A stretch of DNA of 64,000 bases, taken from assembly GCF_010994095.1 (NCBI RefSeq), contig NZ_WJYO01000004.1:310001-374000 (forward strand), read 5' to 3'. The DNA is from Mumia xiangluensis (GTDB taxonomy: Bacteria; Actinomycetota; Actinomycetes; Propionibacteriales; Nocardioidaceae). Shown piece after piece: positions 6,420 to 64,000 of the stretch. How positions within the stretch are numbered: the stretch's first letter is position 1; each line of letters opens with the position of its first letter. The position numbers were made by a program, and so were the translations under genes. Under the pieces are notes generated by a model. It searched no databases. It had not been told where the DNA came from and was given only the letters and a program-made list of their open reading frames with translations.

Positions 6420-6510
6420 CGCATGGGCATGATCGTGCAGGCTCGGTGCTGGTATTCGGCTCGGATCCTGCACGATCCTGCGGAGGCAGCACGAAGCGTG
6501 GCCACGACGA

Positions 6511-7938: not shown

Positions 7939-7993
7939 CGTTGGTGCCTCCGTGGTCACGCGGCGCGGTCGTGTGACCACGGAGGCACCAACG
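7939..7993. terminator. Long perfect hairpin between galK and pheA
   Basis: A 21-bp perfect inverted repeat (7939-7959 with 7973-7993; core GGTGCCTCCGTGGTCAC) around a 13-base loop. The stem is much longer than needed for termination. It resembles in form the intergenic hairpins at 18788, 37688, 38703, 48813, 59861 and 60946, although each has a different sequence. It likely ends galK transcription and may be a dispersed palindromic element. Confidence 0.6.
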
Positions 7994-37668: not shown

Positions 37669-37687
37669 CGCGGTCCCGGCCGCGTCG

Positions 37688-37743
37688 GACGAAAGAACAG
37701 ACATCGTGGCCGCGATCCTGGTGACGATGTCTGGTCTTTCGTC
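37688..37743. repeat. Hairpin element H1, left of first DUF559 gene
   Basis: 20-bp stem (37688-37707 with 37724-37743) with one mismatch around a 16-base loop; core CAGACATCGT / ACGATGTCTG. A second copy in the same orientation (H2, 38703-38762) lies on the other side of the gene. The two align over their whole length, including much of the loop (GTGG.CG.GATCC). Confidence 0.85.
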
Positions 37744-37806
37744 AGCGGCGCGGGTTGTTCACAGGGGTGCGAGCGCGCGACGGGCGAGTCCGGCCACGAT
37801 CGGCGC

Positions 37807-38706
37807 ATGGAGGACGACCTCACGCCCGTGCTGGAGACGCAATGCGGGGTGCTGACGACCGAGCAGGCGACCATGATGTTCGGACGCAGCAGGGTCCGGT
37901 CACGGCTCAAGGCGCAGCGGTGGGCGCAGCCGTACCGCGCCGTGGTCGTGACCCACAATGGTCCGCTCACCCCGGAGCAACGTCGGTGGGCCCACCTGCT
38001 TGCTTGCCCGCCGAGGTCGGTGCTCGGTGGGTTGACCGCGCTCGAGTTGGACGGCCTGCAGGGATTTCCACCCGGCAAGACGTTCGTCGTCGTCCCGTAC
38101 GGCGCCCGCCGCCCTGAGATCGACGGCGTCGTCCTCCACACGAGCTCCTTCCTCGACGCGCGCGACGTGAACCCGGTCCGTACGCCGCCGCGGACCCGGA
38201 CGGCACGGAGCGTCGTCGATGCCGCGAGCTGGTCTCGGGCGCCGCGGCGGGCCCGCGTGATCGTGCTCGCGACGGCACAGCAGGGACTCGTGCGGACGCC
38301 GGACCTGCGCGACGCGTTGTCTCGCCGCGGACGGTGTCGGCACCGAGCGCTGATCGTCGAGTCCTACCTCGATGCCGCCGGTGGCATCCAGTCGTTGCCC
38401 GAGCGCGACTTCGACCTGCTGCGGCGCTCGCTCCACCTGCCGGAACCGACGCGCCAAAGGCCCGTACGCCGCGCCGACGGCCGCTTCTACCTGGACGTCG
38501 CGTGGGATGCGTACGGAGTGGCGTGCGAGATCCATGGGATCCCGCACATGCGGGTCCTCCAGTGGGATTCGGACCTCATGCGGGCGAACGAGATCGTGAT
38601 CGGTGGACCGAAGCTGTTGATCTTCAGCTCGTACGCCGTACGCCACGAGCAGGACGCGGTGGGTGACCAGCTGGTGCGGCTCTTCCGAAACGCAGGCTGG
38701 CGCTGA
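37807..38706 (+). CDS. DUF559/AbiEi-type nuclease-like protein 1, flanked by paired hairpins
   Basis: 299-residue protein. The N-terminal half looks like the winged-helix region of AbiEi-type antitoxins (GVLTTEQATMMFGRSRVRSRL, then PYRAVVV). The C-terminal domain (about 195-299) is of the DUF559/very-short-patch-repair type, with the PD-(D/E)xK-like residues Glu199, Asp230 (FYLDVAWD), Glu241 and His243 (CEIHGIPHM). A nucleic-acid cleavage role is inferred from these residues only. There is no partner toxin gene. The ATG has CACGAT six bases upstream. Both flanks carry the same 60-base hairpin. Confidence 0.75.
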   Translation: MEDDLTPVLETQCGVLTTEQATMMFGRSRVRSRLKAQRWAQPYRAVVVTHNGPLTPEQRRWAHLLACPPRSVLGGLTALELDGLQGFPPGKTFVVVPYGARRPEIDGVVLHTSSFLDARDVNPVRTPPRTRTARSVVDAASWSRAPRRARVIVLATAQQGLVRTPDLRDALSRRGRCRHRALIVESYLDAAGGIQSLPERDFDLLRRSLHLPEPTRQRPVRRADGRFYLDVAWDAYGVACEIHGIPHMRVLQWDSDLMRANEIVIGGPKLLIFSSYAVRHEQDAVGDQLVRLFRNAGWR

Positions 38707-38762
38707 CGGAAGACCAGACATCGTGGTCGTGATCCCGAGCACAATGTCTGATCCTTCGTCAG
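38703..38762. repeat. Hairpin element H2, right of first DUF559 gene
   Basis: Imperfect 22-bp stem starting within the stop codon region of the gene (CTGACGGAAGACCAGACATC pairing with GATGT-like ATGTCTGATCCTTCGTCAG, several G-T pairs). Direct-orientation copy of H1, about 80 percent identical by eye. Confidence 0.8.
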
Positions 38763-39017
38763 CGATGTCCGATTTGGGTGGATATGTACAGTCGTCCAAA
38801 AGGAGAAGCGGCCGAGCTTGGCCGTACGCGCTGCTGTATCTGCCGCGGGGTGACGAACATCCGCTCCTGACCGTCCGGCGCAATCCTGCGTCGGAGATCC
38901 GTACGCCGTGACCCCCGGGCCGTACGAGCACCCCGAGATTGCCGAGCTTGAGCCCGGTCGTTTCAGCGTGCTCTCCGGCGGTCGTGGTTCCCGAGATCCG
39001 CACAGGAACAGACCCCC
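38763..39017. other. Gap before lysozyme gene, no gene seen
   Basis: About 255 bases after H2 without a convincing coding frame. The first 60 bases are AT-richer (GATTTGGGTGGATATGTACAG). The word CCGAGCTTG occurs twice (about 38812 and 38942). I looked for a c-di-AMP riboswitch, which often precedes actinobacterial wall hydrolase genes, and could not match it. A long structured leader remains possible. Confidence 0.35.
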
Positions 39018-48812: not shown

Positions 48813-48866
48813 ACGGGAGTCTCGACATTCCTGTCGCTGAGGCGACGGAGATGTCGAGACTCCCGT
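48813..48866. repeat. Long hairpin between TetR gene and haem surface gene
   Basis: Perfect 16-bp stem ACGGGAGTCTCGACAT / ATGTCGAGACTCCCGT with a second inner stem (GTCGC / GCGAC). Lies between convergent genes and may terminate both. Preceded by three copies of the word CGACGCCGAC or similar (48778-48815). Confidence 0.75.
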
Positions 48867-58390: not shown

Positions 58391-58470
58391 TGTGTGGCGC
58401 AGCCGACACCGGGCGCCACCCACCGCCGACCGCGACGTGCCGACGGCGCGGGGTGCGAGACAATGACGGC

Positions 58471-59844
58471 GTGAATCGCGTCGTGATCGTCGGTGGTGGA
58501 CCAGGTGGGTACGAGGCTGCGCTGGTTGCGGCGCAGCTCGGAGCGGAGGTCACCGTCGTCGAGCGCGACGGGCTCGGCGGATCGACCGTCCTCACCGACT
58601 GCGTGCCGAGCAAGACGCTCATCGCGACGTCCGACCTGATGACCGACGTCGCCGGGTCGGCAGAGCTCGGCATCACCGGGAGCGGCTCGCAGACGGTCGC
58701 GCTCAAGCAGGTCAACGATCGCGTCAAGCGGCTCGCCATCGCTCAGTCGGACGACATCCGGCGCCGCATGGAGCGTGAGAACGTCCAGGTGATCGCTGGG
58801 ACGGCGAGGCTTGACGGCCCGGAGACGGTGCTCGTCGACCGCGCCGACGGCGGCTCCGAGGAGCTCCACTCCCAGATCGTGCTCCTGGCGACCGGTGCGC
58901 ACCCCCGCGTCGTGGACACGGCGCAGCCTGACGGCGAGCGCATCCTGACCTGGGAGCAGGTCTACGAGCTCGACGAGCTCCCGGAGCACCTCGTCGTCGT
59001 GGGGTCGGGCGTGACTGGCGCCGAGTTCGCAGGAGCGTACAAGGCCCTCGGATGTGACGTGACGCTCGTGTCCAGCCGTGACCGGGTGCTCCCCGGCGAG
59101 GACCCGGACGCGGCGGTCGTCCTCGAGGAGGTGTTCACCCGGCGCGGGATGAACGTCCTGTCCCGCTCGCGCATGGAGTCGGTCGAGCGCAAGGGCGACA
59201 CCGTCGTCGTACGCCTCACCGACGGTCGCGAGATCGAGGGATCGCACTGCCTGCTCGCCCTCGGATCCATCCCGAACAGCGCCGGTCTCGGCCTCGAGTC
59301 GGCCGGCGTGAACGTCGATGCCGGCGGCTTCATCGAGGTGGACCGGGTGTCGCGGACGTCGGCGCGCGGCGTGTACGCGGCCGGGGACTGCACCGGTGTC
59401 CTGATGCTCGCCTCGGTCGCGGCCATGCAGGGCAGGATCGCGATGGCGCACGCTCTCGGCGACGCGGTGCATCCGCTGCGGCTCCGTACGGTCGTCTCCA
59501 ACGTCTTCACCGCCCCCGAGATTGCGACGGTCGGCGTGAGCCAGAAGGACATCAACGCCGGTGAGGTCGACGCAGAGTCGGTGACGCTGCGGCTGTCGGG
59601 CAACCCGCGCGCGAAGATGCAGGGCGTGCGCGACGGTTTCGTGAAGCTCTTCTGCCGTCCTGGCGGTGGCGCTGTGATCGGCGGAGTCGTGGTTGCTCCG
59701 CGTGCGTCGGAGCTGATCCACTCGGTCTCGCTCGCCGTCTCCACGGGGCTGACGACGGACCAGGTCGCGAACGCGTTCACCGTCTATCCGTCGATGAGCG
59801 GATCGGTCGCCGAGGCCGCCCGTCGCCTGCACCAGCCCCGCTGA
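58471..59844 (+). CDS. lpdA: NAD(P)H-quinone reductase, LpdA-like flavoprotein
   Basis: 457-residue member of the disulfide-reductase flavoprotein family: FAD motif VVIVGGGPGGYEAALVAAQLG, NAD motif VVVGSGVTGAEFAGAYKALG, and GVYAAGDCTG. The redox-active CxxxxC is incomplete: the segment reads GGSTVLTDCVPSKT with only one Cys, and the C-terminal His-Glu pair is not typical. This matches the Rv3303c-type enzyme, which reduces quinones rather than disulfides. GTG at 58471, six bases after GACAAT, is preferred to the GTG at 58453. Monocistronic and followed by hairpin H3. Confidence 0.88.
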   Translation: MNRVVIVGGGPGGYEAALVAAQLGAEVTVVERDGLGGSTVLTDCVPSKTLIATSDLMTDVAGSAELGITGSGSQTVALKQVNDRVKRLAIAQSDDIRRRMERENVQVIAGTARLDGPETVLVDRADGGSEELHSQIVLLATGAHPRVVDTAQPDGERILTWEQVYELDELPEHLVVVGSGVTGAEFAGAYKALGCDVTLVSSRDRVLPGEDPDAAVVLEEVFTRRGMNVLSRSRMESVERKGDTVVVRLTDGREIEGSHCLLALGSIPNSAGLGLESAGVNVDAGGFIEVDRVSRTSARGVYAAGDCTGVLMLASVAAMQGRIAMAHALGDAVHPLRLRTVVSNVFTAPEIATVGVSQKDINAGEVDAESVTLRLSGNPRAKMQGVRDGFVKLFCRPGGGAVIGGVVVAPRASELIHSVSLAVSTGLTTDQVANAFTVYPSMSGSVAEAARRLHQPR

Positions 59845-59860
59845 CCCGCGCCGCCCCGCC

Positions 59861-59933
59861 CCGTCCGCGATTCGGGCAGTTCGGTACGAATCAGGGCGCG
59901 GACTCGTACCCGAACTGCCCGAATCGGGGACGG
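59861..59933. repeat. Hairpin element H3, beside second DUF559 gene
   Basis: Stem GATTCGGGCAGTTCGG-TACGA (59869-59889) with TCGTACCCGAACTGCCCGAATC (in parts, 59904-59925; one unpaired base), extended by CCGTCC/GGACGG across a 2-base internal loop. A direct copy (H4) lies on the other side of the gene at 60946-61009. Confidence 0.85.
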
Positions 59934-59946
59934 GAGGGACGGGAGC

Positions 59947-60867
59947 CTACGCGAACCAGCGAGTCCACATCGCGTTGAAGTGCGGGCGCGGTCCGTCGTA
60001 CCCGTTGTCGCGCAGTGCCCCGTAGACCCGCCAGACGATCGCCTTCTTGTTCGCGAGGTCGTCGTCGAGGATCACGATGATGGTCCAGCCGAGACGCTCG
60101 AGGGCTTCGCGGCGCGTCCGGTCGCGCGCGCGCTGCTTCTTGGAGCGCTCGTGCCAGGCGCCGTCGTACTCGACGATCACGCGGTACTTCCAGTAGACGA
60201 GGTCGCAGCGCGCCACGAACCGGCCGGCGGCGTCGAGGACGTCCGGATTCGGGTCGGGCTCCGGCAGGCGCGCAAACACCAGCACCAGCCGTACGAGGGT
60301 CTCCATCGGCGACTCGACGCGTTCGCGGACGTACGCGAACGCGCGCCGAGCCCGTACGACTCCGTCGATGTGGCACTGGTCGAGGTACGCCCTCAGCTCG
60401 GCGAGCGTGGTGTGGCCGGCGTGGATCAGATGATCGGCAGCCTGGACCAGCTCGGGCAGTGTCAGACGCTGGGCAGCACAGTCGACGTAGGTCCGGTCCG
60501 GTCCGGTGCACGCGATGCGGTGCCGTACGTACGCCCGCAGCCGGCCGCGGCGCCGGTGCAGCCGGATCTCGTCACGTCGGACGCGTGACTCGGTGTTCGT
60601 CGAGAAGTGGAGCGGAAAGAGCCCGCGTACCTCGAGGCCCCACAGCCGCAGTGCCGTGAGATGGCTGGCAACGGCGTCGTCGGGGAGCAGCAGCAGTGCG
60701 GCGCGCAACCACGTGAGGAGCGTTGGTTCGTCGCTGGCGAGGCAGTAGATGCCACGGAAGAGTCGCCGAAAGCGCCGCGACTTCAGGTCATGTCGGTCGA
60801 AGCCGACGGCCTCAGCGGCCGCGATCGTGAAGGGGCCTGTGGTGAGGGAACTCGGTAGCGGTCTCAC
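59947..60867 (-). CDS. DUF559/AbiEi-type nuclease-like protein 2, flanked by paired hairpins
   Basis: 306-residue relative of the protein at 37807. The N-terminal region (1 to about 130) is the AbiEi-like winged-helix part (TIAAAEAVGFDRHDLKSRRFRRLFRGIY). The C-terminal DUF559 domain (about 180-275) shows the PD-(D/E)xK/very-short-patch-repair layout with Glu185/Glu189, Asp222 (RCDLVYW), Glu233 and Asp235 (VEYDGAWHE), and a basic helix KKQRARDRTRREALERLGW. GTG start without a clear ribosome site. It has no toxin partner. Its stop is 14 bases from H3, and H4 lies 79 bases upstream of its start. Confidence 0.77.
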   Translation of the reverse strand: MRPLPSSLTTGPFTIAAAEAVGFDRHDLKSRRFRRLFRGIYCLASDEPTLLTWLRAALLLLPDDAVASHLTALRLWGLEVRGLFPLHFSTNTESRVRRDEIRLHRRRGRLRAYVRHRIACTGPDRTYVDCAAQRLTLPELVQAADHLIHAGHTTLAELRAYLDQCHIDGVVRARRAFAYVRERVESPMETLVRLVLVFARLPEPDPNPDVLDAAGRFVARCDLVYWKYRVIVEYDGAWHERSKKQRARDRTRREALERLGWTIIVILDDDLANKKAIVWRVYGALRDNGYDGPRPHFNAMWTRWFA

Positions 60868-60945
60868 CCCTCACAGGTGGCGCCTGCGACTTCGCTTCGA
60901 CGGGGCGTCCCTGGCTTCTGTGGACGGTCGAGTCCTGTGGACGTG

Positions 60946-61009
60946 CCCGATTCGGGCAGTTCGGGTACGAATCGCGGTGCGGATTCCTACCCGAACTGCC
61001 CAAATCGGG
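60946..61009. repeat. Hairpin element H4, beside second DUF559 gene
   Basis: 28-bp arms (60946-60973 and 60982-61009) with the core TTCGGGCAGTTCGGGTACGA, two mismatches, 8-base loop. Same orientation and nearly the same sequence as H3. The 60 bases between H4 and the pyruvate carboxylase stop are GC-only runs with a repeated GGGACGCGGCGGGACCCC-like unit. Confidence 0.85.
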
Positions 61010-61068
61010 GACGCGGCGGGACCCCGGGGACGCGGCGGGACCCCGCGGGGCGGACCGGGGCGGGGCGG

Positions 61069-64000
61069 CTAGCTCAGGACCAGGAGCAGGTCGCCGCCCT
61101 CGGACTGGCGCGGGCCGTCGATCACGAGCCGGGCGACGGTGCCGCCGTTGGGGGACGTGATCGACGCCTCCATCTTCATCGCCTCGATCGTCGCCACCTG
61201 CTGGCCGGGCTCGACGGTGTCGCCGACAGCGACCGACGGAGTCACGACACCGTCGAACGGCACGGCGACGTGCAGCGGGTCGGACCCGTCTGCCTTCTCA
61301 GCAGCCACGACGTCGCTTGCCACCGACCGGTCCCGCACGAGCACCGGACGGAGCTGCCCGTTGAGCGTGCAGAGGACGTTGCGCAGCCCGCGCGCGTCGG
61401 CGTCGCTGATCGCCTCGAGCCCAAGGATCAGCGTCTTGCCCTCCTCGAGCGCGACCTCGACGTCGGCGCCGGGACGCAGCCCGAACCAGAACGCCTCGGT
61501 CGGCAGCACGGACAGGTCGCCGTACTCGCCGCGCGCCTCCTCGTAGTCGCGCGTCGGTCCGGGGAACAGCAGCCGGTTCAGCGTCGGACGCGGGTCGGCC
61601 GCGAGTCCGGCGCTGTCGTCGGCCCCCAGCTGAGTCTCGCCGAACTTGACCGTACGACCCTCCAGAGCCTTCGTGCGGAACGGCTCGGGCCATCCGCCGG
61701 GCGGGTCGCCGAGCTCGCCGGCGAGGAACCCGATCACCGAGTCGGGGATGTCGAACGCCTGCGGGTTGTCGGCGAACTCGACCGGGTCCGCGCCGACCGC
61801 GACGAGGTGCAGCGCGAGGTCTCCAACCACCTTCGACGACGGCGTGACCTTGACGATGTCGCCGAGGATGTCGTTCGCAGCGGCGTACATGTCCTCGATC
61901 TGCTCGAAGCGGTCGCCCAGCCCGAGCGCGATCGCCTGCTGCCGCAGGTTGGACAGCTGACCGCCGGGGATCTCGTGCCGGTAGACGCGCCCGGTCGGCG
62001 ACGGGAGCCCGGCCTCGAACGGCGCGTAGAGCTTGCGGACGGCCTCCCAGTACGGCTCGAGGTCGTTGACCGCCTGCAGCGACAGCCCCGTGGTCCGCTC
62101 GGTGTGGTCGGTGCTCGCGACGAGCGCGGACATCGGCGGCTGCGAGGTCGTGCCCGACAGCGACGCGGACGCGGTGTCGACGGCGTCCACGCCGGCATCG
62201 ATCGCCGCCAGCAGCGTCGCGAGCTGCCCGCCCGCGGTGTCGTGGGTGTGCAGGTGCACCGGCACGTCGAAGCGCTCGCGCAGCGCCCGCACGAGACGCG
62301 AGGCCGCGGGTGCGCGCAGCAGGCCTGCCATGTCCTTGATCGCGAGCACGTGCGCGCCCGCGTCGATGATGCGCTCGGCGAGCCGAAGGTAGTAGTCGAG
62401 CGTGTAGATCGGCTCGTCCGGATCCATCAGGTCGCCGGTGTAGCAGAGCGCGACCTCCGCGACGGCCGACCCGGTCGCCCGGACCGCCTCGATCGCGGGC
62501 CGCATCTGCGCGACGTCGTTGAGCGCGTCGAAGATGCGGAAGACGTCGATGCCGGTCGCGGTGGCCTCGGTGACGAACGCGTCGGTGACCTCGGTCGGGT
62601 ACGGCGTGTAGCCGACCGTGTTGCGACCGCGCAGCAGCATCTGGAGGCACACGTTCGGGATCGCCTCGCGCAGGTGGGCGAGGCGCTCCCACGGGTCCTC
62701 CTTGAGGAAGCGCAGCGCCACGTCGTACGTCGCGCCGCCCCACGCCTCGACCGACCACAGCTGCGGGGTCGTACGGGCGACGACGGGAGCGGCGGCGAGG
62801 AGGTCGTACGTCCGCACCCGCGTCGCGAGCAGCGACTGGTGGGCGTCGCGGAACGTCGTGTCGGTGACGGCGACCTGCGTCTGCTCGCGCAGCGTCCGGG
62901 CGAACGCCTCCGGACCGACCTCGAGCAGCTGCTGGCGTGTCCCGGCCGGCGCCGCGGCGCGGAGGTCGATCGCGGGCAGCTTCTCCCGCGGGTCGAGCAC
63001 GTCGGGGGCCGTGCCGTGCGGGCGGTTGACGGTGACGTCGGCGAGGTACGACAGCAGCTTGGTGCCGCGGTCGGCCGAGGGCGGCGCGGCGAGCAGCTCC
63101 GGGTGCCGGTCGATGTAGGAGGTCGTGACGCCTCCCGCGACGAACTCCTCGTCGTTGAGAAGCGCCTGGAGGAACGTCAGGTTCGTCGTGACGCCGCGGA
63201 TCCGGAACTCGGCGAGCGCCCGGCGCGCCCGCTCCACCGCTGCCTCGAAGTTGCGGCCGCGGCAGGTCAGCTTGGTGAGCAGCGAGTCGAAGTACGCACC
63301 GATCTCGGTGCCGGCGTACGTGGTGCCGCCGTCGAGGCGGACACCGGCGCCACCGGGGGAGCGGTACGTGGTGATCTTGCCGGTGTCCGGCCGGAAACCG
63401 TTGGCCGGGTCCTCGGTCGTGATCCGGCACTGCATCGCGGCACCGCGGACGGTGATGGTGTCCTGGCGCAGCCCGAGGTCGGAGAGCGTCTCGCCGGAGG
63501 CGATGCGCAGCTGCGCCTGGACCAGGTCGACGTCGGTCACCTCCTCGGTGACGGTGTGCTCGACCTGGATCCGGGGGTTCATCTCGATGAAGACGTACGA
63601 CCCGTCCGGCGCGAGCAGGAACTCGACCGTCCCGGCGCACGTGTAGCCGATCGACCTCGCGAACGCGACGGCGTCGGCGCACATCCGCTCGCGGATCGCC
63701 GGATCGAGCCGGGGAGCGGGCGCGATCTCGACGACCTTCTGGTGGCGCCGCTGGACGGAACAGTCGCGCTCGAACAGGTGGACCACGTCGCCGGTCGCGT
63801 CGGCGAGGATCTGCACCTCGATGTGCCGCGGGTCGACGACGGCCTGCTCGATGAAGCACGTCGGGTCGCCGAACGCGCCCTCCGCCTCGCGCATGGCGGT
63901 CTCGACGGCCTCGCGCAGCTGCGCCGGGTCGTCGACGCGTCGCATGCCGCGACCGCCGCCACCGGCGACGGCCTTCACGAACAGCGGGTACGGGAGAGCG
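61069..64000 (-). CDS. pyc: Pyruvate carboxylase, 5' end outside window
   Basis: Biotin-dependent carboxylation of pyruvate to oxaloacetate (anaplerosis). The visible 976 or so residues lack only the first 150-odd. Order: end of the biotin carboxylase domain (FVKAVAGGGGRGMRRVDD, EMNPRIQVEHTVTEEVTDVDLVQAQLRIA), carboxyltransferase domain (DTTFRDAHQSLLATRVRTYDL, VHLHTHDTAGGQLATLLAA), and the C-terminal biotinyl domain with the biotin Lys in EAMKMEAS. One polypeptide of the alpha4 type. Reading is open to the right edge (ALPYPLFVKAV). No clear terminator apart from hairpin H4. Confidence 0.96.
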   Translation of the reverse strand, partial: ALPYPLFVKAVAGGGGRGMRRVDDPAQLREAVETAMREAEGAFGDPTCFIEQAVVDPRHIEVQILADATGDVVHLFERDCSVQRRHQKVVEIAPAPRLDPAIRERMCADAVAFARSIGYTCAGTVEFLLAPDGSYVFIEMNPRIQVEHTVTEEVTDVDLVQAQLRIASGETLSDLGLRQDTITVRGAAMQCRITTEDPANGFRPDTGKITTYRSPGGAGVRLDGGTTYAGTEIGAYFDSLLTKLTCRGRNFEAAVERARRALAEFRIRGVTTNLTFLQALLNDEEFVAGGVTTSYIDRHPELLAAPPSADRGTKLLSYLADVTVNRPHGTAPDVLDPREKLPAIDLRAAAPAGTRQQLLEVGPEAFARTLREQTQVAVTDTTFRDAHQSLLATRVRTYDLLAAAPVVARTTPQLWSVEAWGGATYDVALRFLKEDPWERLAHLREAIPNVCLQMLLRGRNTVGYTPYPTEVTDAFVTEATATGIDVFRIFDALNDVAQMRPAIEAVRATGSAVAEVALCYTGDLMDPDEPIYTLDYYLRLAERIIDAGAHVLAIKDMAGLLRAPAASRLVRALRERFDVPVHLHTHDTAGGQLATLLAAIDAGVDAVDTASASLSGTTSQPPMSALVASTDHTERTTGLSLQAVNDLEPYWEAVRKLYAPFEAGLPSPTGRVYRHEIPGGQLSNLRQQAIALGLGDRFEQIEDMYAAANDILGDIVKVTPSSKVVGDLALHLVAVGADPVEFADNPQAFDIPDSVIGFLAGELGDPPGGWPEPFRTKALEGRTVKFGETQLGADDSAGLAADPRPTLNRLLFPGPTRDYEEARGEYGDLSVLPTEAFWFGLRPGADVEVALEEGKTLILGLEAISDADARGLRNVLCTLNGQLRPVLVRDRSVASDVVAAEKADGSDPLHVAVPFDGVVTPSVAVGDTVEPGQQVATIEAMKMEASITSPNGGTVARLVIDGPRQSEGGDLLLVLS

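Follow-up and report, generated by a model that had tools for sequence, protein, structure and literature searches.

Two orphan genes in one stretch of the Mumia xiangluensis genome are each bracketed by a pair of similar hairpins, which raises the question of whether such pairs arise by coincidence or whether the hairpins belong with the gene that they enclose. The original prediction argued for co-variation of enzyme and hairpin, with restriction or RAYT/REP systems as possible models. RAYT/REP systems comprise an enzyme gene flanked by palindromic repeats that also exist as many dispersed copies, and several enzyme-repeat pairs can coexist in one genome (PMC3116915, PMC3733652).

Window genes and their flanking palindromes

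The window, i.e. the whole 64,000-nucleotide stretch that was analysed (contig NZ_WJYO01000004.1, positions 310,001 to 374,000), contains the features listed below, with positions counted from its first base.

37681..37750, no strand assigned: H1, 5'-side inverted repeat of the first orphan gene
37807..38706, plus strand: first orphan gene, 299 aa, with an AbiEi-like N-terminal part and without a Pfam match
38705..38764, no strand assigned: H2, 3'-side inverted repeat of the first orphan gene
58453..59844, plus strand: lpd-like gene, left edge of the site, named from reading the translation
59860..59934, no strand assigned: H3, 3'-side inverted repeat of the second orphan gene, type A dialect, 12 bp past the stop codon
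59947..60867, minus strand: second orphan gene, 306 aa, predicted AbiEi-type reader and Vsr/EDxHD-type nuclease (DUF559)
59998..60312, minus strand: predicted nuclease domain of the second orphan gene, residues 186-290
60325..60867, minus strand: AbiEi-like part of the second orphan gene, residues 1-181
60942..61013, no strand assigned: H4, 5'-side inverted repeat of the second orphan gene, type A dialect, 74 bp upstream of the GTG start
61069..63978, minus strand: pyruvate carboxylase-like gene (pyc), right edge of the site, extending past the window, named from the translation

The arms of H3 (59860-59884 and 59910-59934) are 25 nt long and 96% complementary, and those of H4 (60942-60973 and 60982-61013) are 32 nt long and 91% complementary. 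When the close inverted repeats were ranked across the 64-kb window, H3 and H4 came out at the top and H1 was fourth. H3 and H4 are direct repeats of each other (88% alike over 50 nt, 91% over 23 nt), and DUF559 was matched above the Pfam cut-off at residues 222-282 of the 306-aa protein, which confirmed the near-identical, directly oriented pair described around a second DUF559 gene. The arms of H1 (27 nt, 85%) are longer than those of H3 but weaker than those of H3 and H4, and H1 and H2, taken at 37688-37747 and 38705-38764, are 82% alike. Alignment scores reached 52 for H3-H4 and 34 for H1-H2 and were only 7-8 between the two pairs, in agreement with the statement that the pairs are unrelated in sequence. 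The assignment of both genes to one family held in part: the N-terminal parts of both proteins match PADLOC AbiEi models, but DUF559 is not shared, as the Pfam search with the first protein gave no match. Three further strong close inverted repeats in the window (48813-48866, 7939-7993 and 6427-6481), with sequences unlike H1-H4, may be lone palindromes of other dialects or terminators. Another lone palindrome, with a core like that of H1/H2, was seen at about 1500-1545 of locus L047 (G000:C3:143869-143910), where the protein of the first gene had no match.

PADLOC AbiEi models matched 22 of 22 family members, and the nuclease part showed weak resemblance to pieces of defence proteins such as Hhe. 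VIA-align was used for fold assignment and found both the AbiEi fold and the EDxHD/Vsr-type catalytic fold; on this comparison the gene product is predicted to be an AbiEi-type DNA-binding module fused to a Vsr/EDxHD homing-endonuclease domain. DUF559 has previously been tied to EDxHD homing enzymes (PMC9403480). In-frame TGA codons in nine homologs were considered as internal stops and dismissed, all of them lying at or near the C-terminal end of the match.

Matched pairs and dialects across the gene family

Homologs were searched in six Mumia genomes (G000-G005), which gave 31 matches, 30 of them with loci used, and in 149 genomes of the family to which Mumia belongs, of which 73 had a match at E 1e-30 and which contributed 24 new loci; 60 further matches from the latter search, taken in listing order, were then added. 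An overlap exists between the resulting set of 115 loci and a set of 80 loci from named GTDB genomes. Pairs were scored by local alignment of hairpins lying up to 350 bp outside each gene end. The controls were 175 open frames of at least 200 codons, taken by a simple script from 20 stretches of 12 genomes and from the window, and the score cut of 14 was chosen after viewing these controls (control maximum 13).

At this cut, a matched hairpin pair, with a whole palindrome on both sides of the gene, was found at 81 of the 115 loci, as against none of the 175 controls; the named set gave 41/80. Stricter cuts gave 80/115 and 41/80 at score 16 and 76/115 and 36/80 at score 18, with controls at 0/175 throughout, and an earlier run with 250-bp flanks had given 65/115 at score 16 and 0/175 controls (control maximum 11). 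Pairing beyond coincidence, as originally proposed, is thus borne out, and matched pairs are widespread beyond the two genes of the window. The first 40 named loci, mostly from Mumia and Aeromicrobium, had a pair in 31 cases and the other 40 in ten, the latter from Phycicoccus, Curtobacterium, Rathayibacter, Nocardioides, Herbiconiux, Microbacterium, Klenkia and Amycolatopsis, with scores of 16-17 for the weakest. No matched pair was detected at 34 of the 115 loci and 39 of the 80 named loci, including all eight Agrococcus loci. DUF222 genes, another multicopy family of the same genomes, had a pair in one of 26 cases (score 15), and the idea that any multicopy orphan nuclease carries such pairs was rejected. 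At 75 loci, the gap between the stop codon and the 3' palindrome has a median of 3 bp, and that between the end of the 5' palindrome and the matched start a median of 93 bp.

Several loci deviate in form. A different DUF559 relative in G004 (locus L096) has long palindromes on both sides (873-946 and 2021-2094; TGGGGTACCC...), which the scoring, based on a partial match, left unpaired. The repeat seems to be compound at L205, with two palindromes in tandem in each flank (GGGCCACAACCGTCC... and GGGGCCACAACCGTCC...). In G003 (contig 12, L087 at about 1181-1361), a homolog is immediately preceded by long C and G tracts, either real or an assembly fault.

Gene-by-gene matching was analysed at 75 loci selected for a pair score of at least 18. 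The 3' palindrome of the same gene was the best partner of the 5' one in 63 of the 75, with a mean score of 35.8 for own pairs and 8.5 for foreign pairs (99th percentile 25). The more similar two proteins are, the more alike are the palindromes of their genes (rho 0.42 for pairs above 50% identity). This correlation is strongest for residues 101-165 and weakest for residues 1-60; the region-by-region analysis therefore failed to single out residues 1-60 as the dialect-determining region, and, this being the expected place of the winged helix, the result counts against our best explanation.

The expectation that hairpin sequence follows the gene was also supported by lone copies, but the pairs are not private to one gene as had been supposed. 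In the source genome, the core GATTCGGGCAGTTCGG with up to two mismatches marks 11 sites (ten hairpins with both arms and one single arm), of which only three lie beside a homolog, and a second dialect with the same outer bases is present on the 5' side of the paralog at C1:764856-765770. The outer-base pattern identified 19, 19, 22, 8, 17 and 5 palindromes in G000-G005, respectively, and the reversed pattern none. After removal of the 8 gene-flanking copies from 83 Mumia palindromes (G000 being represented by 12, which are among the 19 counted), 43 of the 75 lone palindromes best matched a gene palindrome of their own genome, as compared with a mean of 11.1 and a maximum of 21 in 10,000 permutations. 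Most of the 32 misses were G002 copies nearer to the G005 gene, or swaps between G003 and G004, whose dialects are alike. The Aeromicrobium dialect CACTTTTGGAA, predicted beforehand for G041, G076, G087 and G120, was found there in 10, 9, 19 and 11 copies; elsewhere it occurred four times in G058, once in G133 and not at all in the other 143 of the 149 genomes, and the reversed pattern gave none. G058 and G133 carry palindromes of this dialect without a matching-dialect gene among the collected loci. The hairpins are dialects of gene and genome rather than a property of a single gene.

These palindromes have a nearly fixed length. All 54 Aeromicrobium copies measure 61 bp although 46-76 bp were allowed, and of the 83 Mumia palindromes, 69 measure 66 bp, 13 measure 65 bp and one measures 45 bp. 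Arms are conserved and loops variable among copies, so that recent wholesale copying is not general. The symmetry of the arms is compensatory: stem columns 12-21 are 85.7% Watson-Crick paired against a maximum of 83.0% in 1,000 within-genome shuffles, and sliding the columns by 1-3 lowers the pairing to 10-26%. It is very improbable that the repeats are RNA terminators or other RNA hairpins that bracket the gene by accident. The position of H3, 12 bp past a stop codon, would suit a terminator, but there was no Rfam match in the window at 37000-62000, and gene-oriented stem mismatches comprised 82 G-T and 105 A-C, i.e. no excess of RNA wobble on the gene strand, for which reasons the RNA reading was rejected. 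Moreover, termination requires neither an upstream copy nor gene-specific matching, and none of the 175 control genes has such a pair. The target on which I-Bth0305I dimerises spans nearly 60 bp (PMC3943268), and the inverted repeat bound by AbiEi has arms of up to 23 bp (PMC3985639); a dimer reading the palindrome as duplex DNA would fit these sizes.

Occupied and empty sites in Mumia and signs of possible movement

Occupancy was compared among the six Mumia genomes, in which seven further sites were located by a joined marker query; the names pyc, lpd, citA, pgm, hutH, hutU, tgt, xerD, mreB and argH come from reading translations. The lpd-like gene lies beside pyc in all six genomes. The pyc/lpd site holds the gene and its pair in G000, G001, G003, G004 and G005, while in G002 the neighbours are intact and enclose one palindrome of the G002 dialect and no gene. 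At the citA site, gene and pair are present in G001, G002 and G004 and a single palindrome in G005; no palindrome of this type was found there in G003 or in G000, which has another hairpin. The pgm site holds gene and pair in G002 and G004, a single palindrome in G005 and none in the other three. Hence, each of the three gene sites (3 of 3) has one genome in which a single palindrome is present and the gene is missing. Lone copies were found at hutH in five of the six genomes and at tgt and xerD in three each; those at argH and mreB were confined to G000. G002 and G000 are grouped in an unrooted species tree (support 0.999), so that the simplest account of the G002 state at pyc/lpd is a gene loss that left one palindrome. 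Comparison of filled and empty sites gave no clean target duplication, and exact insertion ends were not definable. At four hutH loci (L341, L342, L343 and L345), the palindrome overlaps the last 1-7 bases of the matched hutH segment, and the hutH reading frame may therefore extend into the palindrome.

In the gene tree, the pgm-site gene of G002 falls among the pyc-site genes (support 74 for the full length, 77 for residues 1-165) and that of G004 lies on a long separate branch, which indicates that apparently two different genes occupy one palindrome site; support is weak at several deep nodes, and residues 166-306 alone gave a mostly unresolved tree. At citA, the gene of G001 has the opposite orientation to those of G002 and G004. 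Two G000 paralogs are 90-100% identical in 8 of 11 50-column windows, from about base 480 through the 3' palindrome, and outside this tract about 55-80% in most earlier windows and below 40% beyond. This tract, which covers the 3' half of the gene and its 3' palindrome, is conversion-like and left the C1 copy with two different dialects. Flanking palindromes are identical over their full length at L137 (76 nt) and L197 (59 nt). For lone copies at shared sites, only 6 of 11 resemble a copy elsewhere in their own genome more than the copy at the corresponding site of another genome, so rewriting in place is only partly supported; at the pyc site, likeness within a pair exceeds that between species in three of five genomes.

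Known systems and proposed mechanism

The unit resembles RAYT/REP-REPIN systems (REPtrons) in having an enzyme gene between repeats (81/115 vs 0/175) and dispersed copies of the repeat. The parallel drawn in the original prediction holds for this anatomy and fails for the enzyme, which is unrelated: RAYTs belong to the HUH transposases, and the REPs they cleave are single-stranded and carry a GTAG tag (PMC8266576), whereas the Mumia-type enzyme is predicted to combine AbiEi with a Vsr/EDxHD nuclease. The repeats also differ, being palindromes with a fixed length of about 60-66 bp in 5-22 copies per Mumia genome by one outer pattern. GTAG within 6 nt outside the repeat end was found in none of 150 gene palindromes and inside the repeat in 16 of 150; CGTC within 6 nt outside occurred, as a raw count, in 13 of 150. 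Mumia arms often start with CGTC, but there it is base-paired with GACG.

With EDxHD homing endonucleases such as I-Bth0305I, the unit appears to share the EDxHD/Vsr-type catalytic fold. The gene here lies between two genes and not inside another, its DNA reader is AbiEi-like, and its inferred target is an intact palindrome that flanks the gene on either side and also occurs in many lone copies. In a classical homing enzyme, by contrast, insertion destroys the enzyme's own target. The AbiEi fold recalls AbiE, a type IV toxin-antitoxin system, but judging from the neighbours at the pyc/lpd site there is no adjacent AbiEii nucleotidyltransferase toxin; moreover, a nuclease domain is fused here, and palindromes also lie 3' of the gene and are dispersed. 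As for type II restriction-modification, the neighbours of the nuclease gene at the window site are pyc and lpd. The unit works like RAYT/REP, with the predicted catalyst of EDxHD homing endonucleases and the predicted reader of AbiE.

Three other readings were weighed. A strict RAYT-like process, in which the palindrome is excised and pasted as a single-stranded hairpin and the gene moves as a hairpin-ended transposon, would account for the REPIN anatomy (conserved arms, free loop, dispersed copies and a flanked enzyme gene) and for the lone copies at argH and mreB that are confined to G000. We regard it as unlikely: Y1_Tnp (PF01797) was matched in 0 of 6 Mumia genomes and in 6 of 14 control genomes, so that a RAYT acting in trans was dismissed for the six, and the predicted nuclease domain is of the hydrolytic Vsr/EDxHD type. 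To our knowledge, nucleases of this type have no strand-transfer activity.

The chance is smaller still that the protein is a transcription regulator, with the upstream palindrome as its self-repression operator and the lone ones as a regulon. AbiEi represses its own promoter via a long inverted repeat (PMC3985639) and the N-terminal part is AbiEi-like, but the second palindrome lies at the 3' end, a median of 3 bp past the stop (75 loci), the five lone-copy sites examined are near gene ends or between hutH and hutU and vary among species in their presence, and a conserved nuclease would be superfluous for a pure regulator. A defence or restriction-like nuclease, for which the palindromes in the genome would be marks of self or decoys keeping the enzyme inactive, seems equally improbable. 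The PADLOC matches (22/22) and the weak likeness to parts of defence proteins such as Hhe point that way; against it, the gene at the pyc/lpd site has the housekeeping genes pyc and lpd, and not a toxin gene, as its sole neighbours in five of the five gene-bearing Mumia genomes.

We consider it fairly probable that this is a palindrome-gene-palindrome unit run by a homing-type nuclease acting on its own palindromic targets. The palindrome, an inverted repeat with a fixed length of about 60-66 bp, would be the putative target of the enzyme and would be read as DNA, probably by a protein dimer, through the AbiEi part. The nuclease would then cut at or near one of the lone copies, which lie dispersed in the genome and are mostly in the dialect of a resident enzyme. 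Repair of the cut from another copy would rewrite the palindrome or copy the gene in between two palindromes, and recombination between the two flanking palindromes would remove the gene and leave one palindrome. Since both flanks and many genomic copies are intact, self-cutting must be restrained somehow; the palindrome upstream of the start may double as an operator for self-repression, as in AbiE, which is one option for restraining the enzyme on intact targets. We infer binding, the dimer, cutting, repair-driven copying and self-repression in this scheme. The orphan gene unit looks like a selfish element of an apparently undescribed kind, one whose target sites spread along with it. The claim that no described system has such an arrangement agrees with our search of full-text literature, a body with subscription papers and preprints mostly outside it, which returned no such system and no paper with AbiEi and DUF559 together; the arrangement may already have been described elsewhere.

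Palindromic repeats that are dispersed in genomes but have no known enzyme are a long-standing puzzle; CGTC repeats, for example, apparently have no dedicated transposase (PMC3733652). The present finding ties repeats of this sort to one particular enzyme family outside the transposases, whose natural dialects occur in many genomes, which makes enzyme-target recognition, self-restraint and spread directly testable. We put at about even the chance that this is a second, independently evolved REPIN-type system, widespread in Actinomycetes, in which an AbiEi-guided homing nuclease maintains, rewrites and colonises genome-wide inverted-repeat targets of about 60 bp, and in which enzyme and target switch dialect together by species. 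If so, a different role would fall to the AbiEi/DUF559 orphan genes, which PADLOC matches to antitoxin models, a large natural set of candidate nuclease-target pairs would become available, and similar enzymes could account for other dispersed palindromes for which no transposase has been found.
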